Assembly: GCA_028564705.1 (NCBI GenBank)
Contig: JAPXFQ010002899.1
Coordinates: forward strand, 1,054,001-1,118,000
DNA: 64,000 nt
Source: Apricaphanius iberus
Lineage: Eukaryota > Chordata > Actinopteri > Cyprinodontiformes > Aphaniidae
Reading direction: 5' to 3'
Shown here piece by piece: positions 44,130-47,100 of the stretch (position 1 is its first letter; every line of letters begins with the position of its first letter). The notes under the pieces are model-generated. The model had not been told where the DNA came from. It saw only the letters and a list, made by a program, of their open reading frames with translations, and made no database searches. A program made the position numbers and the translations under genes.

Positions 44130-47100
44130 TCATCGACCTCCTCCATTGGCTCCTCCACCGCCAGCGCCTCCTCCTGATTGGTCCTGAGCGCCAGACATCA
44201 TCAGGAATAGAACCAGAGGCACGATGTACATCCACTGCAAGAGAAACAGTGAAAAAAAAAGACAAATAACTAAAATTTTGTCAAAGAATGAAACAATTAA
44301 CTCTGATCACTTGCATGTATTTGGAAAAAGTTGCTGATTCATTTCCTCCCAGATTAGGAAGTAGGGCTGCACGATTATGACCAAAATAATAATAATCACG
44401 ATTATTTTGATCAATATTGTAATCACAATTATTAATCACGATCATTCATCCAGTCCTTTAAAATATATATTTTTGTTGCACCAATTATAAACGTACAATG
44501 TTGCAACATTTGTTTGCGAAAAATAAAACTTTAGATTAGAATAGATAACAAAAACAAACTCCAATACTTATATATATATATATATATATTTAAACGTACA
44601 AGCTAAATATGTTATAGCAGAGTGCAATCTCAAAGTGCAATTTAACAGAAAAAAATTACAGCTTATACAGAAAAGGCCTTTGACATTCCCTTCATCCAAA
44701 TCCTTAGTATTTACTATATGCTACGTAGCAACTATTACTCGTCCGTTAATGTAGTAAATGCTGCATAGCAAACAATCGCATAATAGGCATGAAATCAGAC
44801 ATACTGCTCCACATATTTTGCATGTCCTTTGACCCGTATTGACTGTTCTTTTGACCCAGATGATTACGTTAAGTTCGCTTGTGGTCCCGCAATCCTCTAG
44901 CCGTTATTTTGTCTGGTATGACTTTACAACTTAAATGTTTAATCAGTCAAAAAACAACTACAGTAATCAGTAACATTGCTTCACGTACATTTATCCGCTG
45001 AAACTGCGGCGGTATCGATGGTTGACAGTTCGTCTGTAGCCATTTTTAGCTAGGTCCCTCTTCTTCTATGATTTCGGGGCGTCCGCTGCATTGTGGGATA
45101 GCGTAGCGTCCACCGGCTGCTTACTGTGGCGGTAGTACAGTTTTGGGAACTTTCTTACTAGTCTGATCCATAATGGAGATTTGGATCTACTACATTGCTC
45201 AAACACTGTTTTTCACCTGCTACATAGCAAGCGTAGTGCAGCCGTTATGAGTGCTGAGTGGCGTGTGCGCGTTTTTTATTTGGGCAGCTTAATGAAGCTT
45301 TAGCCATGCGTTTGCCCCCTGGTGGCTCGTAAACTATTGATTGAGTCGACGTGATAAAGAACAAAGCAGAAGAGCTCGCATTCTGAATGTAAATATCGTT
45401 CACAATCGGGTTCATTTAATTGTGGCCACCAAAGTCGTGATCACGATCAAAATCCGATTAATTGTGCAGCCCTATTAGGAAGACATTTATTTCTCAACAG
45501 AAGAGAAGAACGTGTTAAAGTCGCCCAGGAGGAAGAGAGAACAGAGTCGAGATCTCAGAGTCAAACACCAAATTCATTCAGACTTTGATAACTTTATAAA
45601 TGTTTGGATTTGATTAACTTTTTAGAGACTATGAGCAAAAAAATGTATTTGGTATCAGACTTCTGAGGAGGCCTAACAGAGGAAAAATGAAAGTGGAAGT
45701 GGAAAACTAGACGTGCAGTTAGTCTCGCTGATAAGAGGTTAAAAATAAACGGAGAGAGAGAAGAAATAGAAAAAGTAGCCACAAGTAAAGAAACTGTACT
45801 TCAGTGGGAATCAGCTCTGCTCTCTGCCGCCCCCTGCTGGGGGCTGTGCCGAATTGGTGAGCATGAGTAAGACGGCTCCTCCCAGAATCAAATACCACTG
45901 GAACACAGCAACACACAGTCACTGGACACACAGCGAGGCACAAACACAGCACAGAAAAACACCAAGGCAGGAGGATCACATGGGAACCCGGCCGGGCCAA
46001 GCGGGACCGGGTCGCTCCGAAAAACTCATCAGAAAAACTCACACACAAAAAAAAACACATGTCCGCTTCCTTTACATGTGATTTTAGAGGAGAAATAACT
46101 AACAAACGGGTGAAGCGTTGCAGCTCTTTGGTGGTTTCAAAACCTTTCACACATTTTGTTTCCGTTTATTAAAACAGCCTGGAAAACAAAACCAAAAAGC
46201 GTTCTGTTATTTTAGACAAAAGCAGCTGCTGTCAGGCAGAAAGTCATGCTGAGTGTGTGAATAAATAAACATAATAAAACAGCCAGAGTTAAGCTGCATT
46301 CAGACCGCATCCGTTGGATACGTCGAGCAACGCATCCAACGGATGAAGTTTGATGTTCTGAGGAAAAAACAGTGCATGGGCGGGGCTTCCTCTGTTGCCG
46401 CACGTTCTGAACTATGGTGGACCGTATCAAGAGAGTAGCTTGGCTTTATTAGCTAGATAAAGCCATACAACGTTGACATCGGGTGTATCAGCGCCCATTA
46501 TTCAGATGCGTTCTGCGTTTGGGGAGTTTAACCATTTGCTCCAGGAGCTGCTTTTGGATGAGGTTCGCTTTCAGTGCTACTTCCATCTGTCCCGCACCTA
46601 ATTTTACAACCTACTCGGCCGCATCGGAGCTCAAATCTCCAACCAGGACACCAACTAAAGGATTTCTGTTCCTCTTTAGGAGCGCCTGTCCATCTGACTT
46701 CGGTAAGTGTTATTTATGATTTTTTAAATCTGCGTTTGTTGAAAATGTTTTCACTGGACCTGCGCTTCATTCAAGATACGGCGTATAGTGACATAACTAC
46801 AGTGAGACGCTCTGATTGGTTGCCGCACTGCGTTAACTGCGTTGGATCCGTCAAAAGTTCAGCTTGCTGAACTTCTGTAACGCATGCGTTGGTACGTTGC
46901 CGTATGAAACGCAAGCGTCGTTGACGGAGCCAACGTACTCAACGCAACGCAGAGCCCTTGACGGACCTCTGACGTACTCCACCATAGACTTTAAATTTAA
47001 TCTTGCCGCAGCTAACGCAGACCAAATGTGCGGTGTGAATGCAGCTTTAGATGATCACAAAGAAAAAACATCATTTCAAGTTTTTAACAAAATACAGAGC

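Follow-up and report, generated by a model that had tools for sequence, protein, structure and literature searches.

A terminal EMC10 exon in Apricaphanius iberus very probably orthologous to that of mammalian isoform 2

Organization of the EMC10 locus

The window, by which we mean the whole stretch of 64,000 nucleotides under study, carries a complete EMC10 gene on its minus strand, and it is this gene with its proximal and distal terminal exons that we analysed. All features given below lie on the minus strand. The coding part of exon 1 (51260..51352) encodes the signal peptide and runs from the ATG to the donor, from where an in-frame join leads into EMC10 proteins of 250 or 256 amino acids. 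Exon 2 (51046..51112), exon 3 (49330..49442) and exon 5 (48700..48884) are placed by in-frame joins and protein matches, and exon 4 (49065..49178) by an in-frame join with a weak donor (GCT/GTATGT, 2.9 bits). Exon 6 (47340..47433) ends with AAA TAC (Lys-Tyr) in phase 0, and its donor (TAC/GTGAGT) is shared by both terminal exons.

The proximal terminal exon (45811..45897) comprises 87 bp, that is 29 codons including the stop, is in phase with exon 6 and reads WYLILGGAVLLMLTNSAQPPAGGGREQS followed by the stop codon. A candidate poly(A) signal, AATAAA, is found at 45486..45491. The distal terminal exon (44130..44234) reads WMYIVPLVLFLMMSGAQDQSGGGAGGGGANGGGR, starting with WMYIVPLVLFLMMSGAQ, and corresponds to the tail of the membrane isoform (mEMC10/HSM1); candidate AATAAA signals of this exon occur at 44037..44042 and at 43948-43953. 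Two alternative terminal exons in frame behind exon 6 had been proposed in a first-pass annotation of this DNA, together with the distal exon as the known EMC10 tail, an AATAAA for the proximal exon and a hydrophobic proximal tail. The coordinates, the phase and the Lys-Tyr end were all confirmed here, as was the hexamer as a sequence motif. An alignment of the distal tail to the macaque membrane tail scores 131 points, compared to 11 +/- 11 points for shuffled sequences, and the proximal tail reaches a Kyte-Doolittle maximum of 1.57 in a window of 19 residues.

Both spliced products are open, with 250 amino acids for the proximal and 256 amino acids for the distal form. They are identical through ...SFFAKYW and differ only beyond this point. 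The Pfam EMC10 family (PF21203) was recognized in the proximal form with 43.1 bits (cut-off 23) over residues 141-232, and the lumenal domain shares 98% identity with its Cyprinodon variegatus counterpart. In a protein search of the 1.195-Gb genome all seven matches listed for EMC10 were exons of the present locus and none pointed to a second one, while the 28-residue proximal tail was matched once in the genome. EMC10 thus looks single-copy.

Two transposon-like insertions lie in the 3' part of the gene. The first, an element of 1113 bp (44362..45474), separates the proximal poly(A) signal from the distal exon. It possesses terminal repeats (TAGGGCTGCAC) and an 8-bp target duplication (CTTCCTAA), from which we take it to be a hAT-like DNA transposon. 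The genome search returned 43 matches including the element itself, from 40 scored out of 3269 candidates, and the best other full-length copies are approximately 91% identical. The element starts 11 bases behind the proximal AATAAA and, judged by its position, would now have to supply the downstream part of this candidate poly(A) site. The second insertion is a repeat of 756 bp in intron 6 (46291-47046) with terminal inverted repeats (AGCTGCATTCA...) and, by eye, a 3-bp TAA flank. Including itself, 45 genome matches were listed, the longer ones being 87-94% identical; we presume it to be PIF/Harbinger-like.

Distribution and conservation of the proximal tail

To describe the occurrence of the proximal tail we used three protein searches aimed at it, which returned 376, 152 and 401 matches, with 120 listed for each and 253 distinct proteins listed altogether. 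As these queries were chosen to find the proximal tail, the following counts must not be read as frequencies: 221 of the 253 listed proteins carry a tail of the proximal type directly after the KY of exon 6, 20 carry the distal tail, in four the proximal tail follows a different junction, six begin with the proximal tail and then vary or lose the frame, and two (from a pit viper and a sturgeon) match neither type.

The first query, the 61 C-terminal residues of the proximal form, found 376 proteins, among which 120 out of 120 listed, from teleosts and gar, have tails starting with WYLI(L/V)GGA. The 28-residue tail, which the first-pass annotation suggested looking for in other fish, is thus present in every match listed. 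Counted by hand, 85 of these 120 proteins bear the name "isoform X2" and three are unnamed; most of the "isoform X2" names look like automatic predictions. With the mammalian isoform-2 tail as query 152 proteins were found, and 107 of the 120 listed were new. They come from mammals, lizards, snakes, turtles, frogs, salamanders, caecilians, reedfish and lamprey, and mostly read WH(L/I)ILGGA; some fish were listed again, and mammalian membrane tails appeared at the bottom of the list. The lamprey form as third query led to 401 proteins, with 26 new ones among the 120 listed, adding sharks, rays and lungfish. The proximal tail thus occurs from lamprey and sharks to mammals and is not specific to fish. 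Since Petromyzon has the proximal tail (P0146) and Lampetra the distal tail (P0228), both tails predate the split between lampreys and jawed vertebrates.

The GG-A core of the proximal tail is nearly invariant among the 253 listed proteins, which is partly due to the search pattern. The tails were also judged by BLOSUM alignment scores in comparison to 5000 shuffles with the first Trp held fixed. The proximal tail of the fish scored 53, 80 and 69 points against macaque, Xenopus and lamprey, with shuffle means of -3.2, -4.3 and -4.2 and standard deviations of 8.4-8.8, and none of the 5000 shuffles reached the observed score in any of the three comparisons. By this measure the likeness of the proximal tails exceeds chance.

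The identity is unevenly distributed along the protein. In the hydrophobic part of 18 residues it amounts to 0.56-0.78 across Xenopus, macaque, a shark, a sawfish and lamprey, compared to 0.52-0.60 in the lumenal domain; the individual values for hydrophobic part and lumenal domain are 0.67 and 0.52 in lamprey, 0.78 and 0.59 in Xenopus, and 0.56 and 0.58 in macaque. Signal peptides are only 0.15-0.19 identical in lamprey, Xenopus and macaque (0.15-0.26 with the shark and the sawfish included). In close relatives the order is reversed: the hydrophobic part reaches 0.89 in Cyprinodon and 0.83 in Kryptolebias, and the lumenal domain 0.98 and 0.97, respectively. The last 10 residues are identical in Cyprinodon, Kryptolebias, Oryzias javanicus and Takifugu, and their identity is 0.10-0.40 in tetrapods, lungfish, sharks and lamprey. 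As far as protein identity can indicate, this pattern fits selection that acts on the hydrophobic core and not on the end.

Relation to the mammalian isoform pair

The tail of macaque isoform X2 reads WHIILGGAVLLTALRPAAPGPAPPPQEA, which is letter for letter the tail of human isoform 2 (HSS1/scEMC10). The fish proximal form and mammalian isoform 2 (HSS1/scEMC10/INM02) have in common the gene, the junction after AKY, phase 0, a Trp followed by the x-x-ILGGA hydrophobic core, a short polar end, and a stop after 28 residues. In the fish the Trp follows directly on ...SFFAKY of exon 6, the core reads W-x-x-I-L-G-G-A, and a membrane tail of the WMYI type is encoded as the alternative in the distal exon, in the same phase behind the same exon. 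The two tails differ in that the fish one starts with WY and ends with PPAGGGREQS, while macaque isoform 2 reads WH...PAPPPQEA. The membrane isoform (HSM1/mEMC10) shares the lumenal domain and exon 6 with the proximal form and takes its tail from the distal exon; in this fish this tail has 34 residues and only the first Trp in common with the proximal one.

Excerpts of three publications (PMC9705309, PMC9456234, PMC12221355) state that membrane-bound and secreted EMC10 isoforms arise by differential splicing. The mammalian counterpart of the proximal form is described as secreted and without a transmembrane domain in excerpts of PMC9705309, and according to those of PMC9456234 both isoforms were cloned in mouse and scEMC10 was found in the serum of human and mouse. 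For the human gene, PMC7756316 reports seven exons coding for 262 amino acids and a variant c.679-1G>A in the acceptor of intron 6. This places the start of the human membrane exon, by arithmetic, at codon 227 and in phase 0, in agreement with the fish. The word "isoform" is absent from the main text of PMC7756316, and the variant hits the acceptor of the membrane-tail exon. Solved structures contributed four distinct sequences at E <= 0.001, all named EMC10: two long chains of 262 and 263 residues include the membrane tail, and two short ones end ahead of it. The isoform pair is not described for fish in the excerpts of PMC13241820 and PMC8933327, and those of PMC4295481, PMC9268894 and PMC8187145 contain nothing on the isoform exon.

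We therefore hold, with high confidence for the proposal as a whole, that the proximal exon of the fish and the alternative terminal exon of mammalian isoform 2 ("secreted", HSS1/scEMC10) are orthologous. The first-pass annotation had considered the choice in fish as a parallel to the human membrane/secreted pair, though apparently distinct from it. This contrast falls because of the orthology of the tails, the macaque isoform X2 tail and the matching phase of the human exon: it is the same pair, the proximal exon being orthologous to HSS1/scEMC10 and the distal one to HSM1/mEMC10. The underlying observation is correct, while the isoform is already known and deeply conserved and the interpretation needed correcting.

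Mechanistically, splicing of the exon 6 donor to the proximal exon would yield the conserved W(H/Y)-L-I-L-G-G-A tail, and splicing to the distal exon the W-M-Y-I-x-P anchor of the EMC. Judged by the tails in present-day species, both choices already existed before lampreys and jawed vertebrates diverged. The proximal product would keep the lumenal domain and do without the EMC anchor, and in the fish it may well belong to the same class as the mammalian one, which is reported to leave the cell. The isoform switch of EMC10, a subject of mammalian work on metabolism and angiogenesis, is thus older than the split between lampreys and jawed vertebrates, and fish are therefore suited to testing it.

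Membrane anchor or secreted tail

The hydrophobic core is kept throughout in the "secreted" tail, and the statement that this form lacks a transmembrane domain leaves the core unexplained. We calculated insertion energies with Hessa-type parameters calibrated on Ala/Leu segments, for which the sign changes between 3 and 4 Leu in 19 Ala. For this fish the predicted energy is -0.65 for the proximal and +0.20 for the distal tail, and the means over the relatives listed are -0.01 (n=219, with a few out-of-frame models included) and +0.14 (n=20). The WY-type proximal tails, which come mostly from ray-finned fish, average -0.17 (n=141 among the relatives listed). The Kyte-Doolittle maximum of the distal tail in this fish is 1.60 and close to that of the proximal one. 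AlphaFold2 models were available for 28 of the 253 listed proteins, and the Cyprinodon form is modelled with one helix at residues 216-236 at low confidence.

These values, together with the nearly invariant GG-A core, are arguments that the proximal tail could be a true second membrane anchor, as the first-pass annotation had read it. The product would then be a protein of the ER membrane whose helix does not fit the anchor site of the EMC, and the circulating form would arise by cleavage. We regard this alternative as somewhat improbable. The case is weaker outside ray-finned fish, because the mean for the WH type, found in tetrapods, lamprey and others, is +0.29 (n=78, with a few out-of-frame models included) and less favourable than that of the distal tails; values of +1.77 in reedfish and +0.87 in lungfish point in the same direction. 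Averaged over relatives, the Kyte-Doolittle maximum is lower for the proximal than for the distal tail (1.46 vs 1.64). The sum over a simple scale is 1.99 vs 2.09 for proximal vs distal in the fish and 4.17 vs 2.04 in macaque, where the proximal tail is clearly less hydrophobic. The scEMC10 reported in human and mouse serum also speaks against an anchor.

By score, the proximal tail of the fish thus appears as membrane-like as the accepted anchor, and tetrapod-type tails appear less so. The fish sequence neither bears out the absence of a membrane segment nor refutes secretion, although the hydrophobicity of the tail speaks against taking secretion for granted. As a more speculative suggestion, which we put forward with some doubt, the "secreted" tail might be an ancient second anchor from lamprey to man: the choice of exon would swap two marginal helices, the lumenal domain would leave the EMC for another membrane pool, and the circulating protein would be shed later. 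A GPI anchor for the proximal form was considered without computation and set aside, because about 10 polar residues follow the hydrophobic part.

Probable use and splicing of the proximal exon

Four of the proteins with a proximal tail derive from short contigs (P0070, 949 bases; P0087, 918; P0090, 1083; P0245, 1140). In the present genome the stretch from exon 2 to the proximal exon spans more than 5 kb, and since these contigs are too short for the introns of such a gene they are probably cDNA. According to excerpts of PMC8933327, genes of the reef fish Acanthochromis polyacanthus underwent differential splicing during a marine heatwave, and emc10 is listed as one of them.

Splice sites were scored with consensus matrices. 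Both terminal exons had been said to start with a Trp codon behind a good acceptor. The Trp codons are present; the proximal acceptor, with a U/G-rich tract, is not a notably strong one and at 6.2 bits ranks lowest of the seven internal ones, as the other six reach 6.4-16.1 bits and the distal one 10.6 bits. The donors of the gene range from 2.9 to 12.1 bits. Among the 20 GT sites between the start of the proximal exon and the border of the hAT-like element none exceeds 2.8 bits, and among the 18 between the proximal stop and the element none exceeds 1.9 bits. The only donors of at least 5 bits between the two terminal exons lie within the element. These weak GT sites and the AATAAA approximately 320 bases beyond the stop codon favour an alternative last exon over a cassette. 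The sequence around the exon suggests the former for this fish, where the proximal exon would probably end at its own AATAAA.

As a cassette, the proximal exon would supply the stop codon and the transcript would splice on to the distal exon as 3' UTR. For the fish this is unlikely in the light of the GT sites and the hexamer, even though the hAT-like element brings donors of 5.7-7.3 bits. Support comes rather from mammals: in three gene models (P0199 from Vicugna, P0200 from Microcebus, P0204 from Arvicola) the proximal exon is joined to what, by eye, matches the distal exon in its other frames, which differs from the probable arrangement in the fish, and in excerpts of PMC9456234 one primer pair amplified both mouse isoforms. 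Mammals may include the proximal exon as a cassette. As a separate observation, P0145, P0142, P0207 and P0223 (two mammals and two contigs) have additional residues that separate exon 6, or an intron, from the WHLILGG tail, which points to intron retention or to a further acceptor upstream for this exon in mammals.

The weak acceptor, the insertion 11 bases behind the hexamer, and V-L in the tail core where close relatives have I-F could also be taken as signs of a decaying relic that is out of use in this species. We consider this very improbable, as the frame is open, the last 10 residues are the same as in Cyprinodon, Kryptolebias, Oryzias javanicus and Takifugu, and both substitutions are hydrophobic, with V and L found at those positions in other species.

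Origin of the two terminal exons

A duplication of the distal exon specific to fish, which would have created a new anchor with no relation to the mammalian isoform, might be read from the hydrophobic parts of the two tails of this fish, which align with a score of 21 equalled by 0.9% of 5000 shuffles (11% for the macaque pair), but it was rejected with hardly any residual probability since the proximal tail is present in lamprey, sharks and tetrapods, and the fish distal tail aligns with the macaque proximal tail no better than shuffles (37% as good). An ancient duplication before the vertebrate radiation is conceivable. The tail of P0205 (Acipenser ruthenus EMC10 isoform X2), which reads WYFIVPGAVLLFVSNAGQRN, looks intermediate between the distal type (WMYIVP) and the proximal type (GAVLL...SNA) and may hint, at most, at a common origin of both terminal exons.
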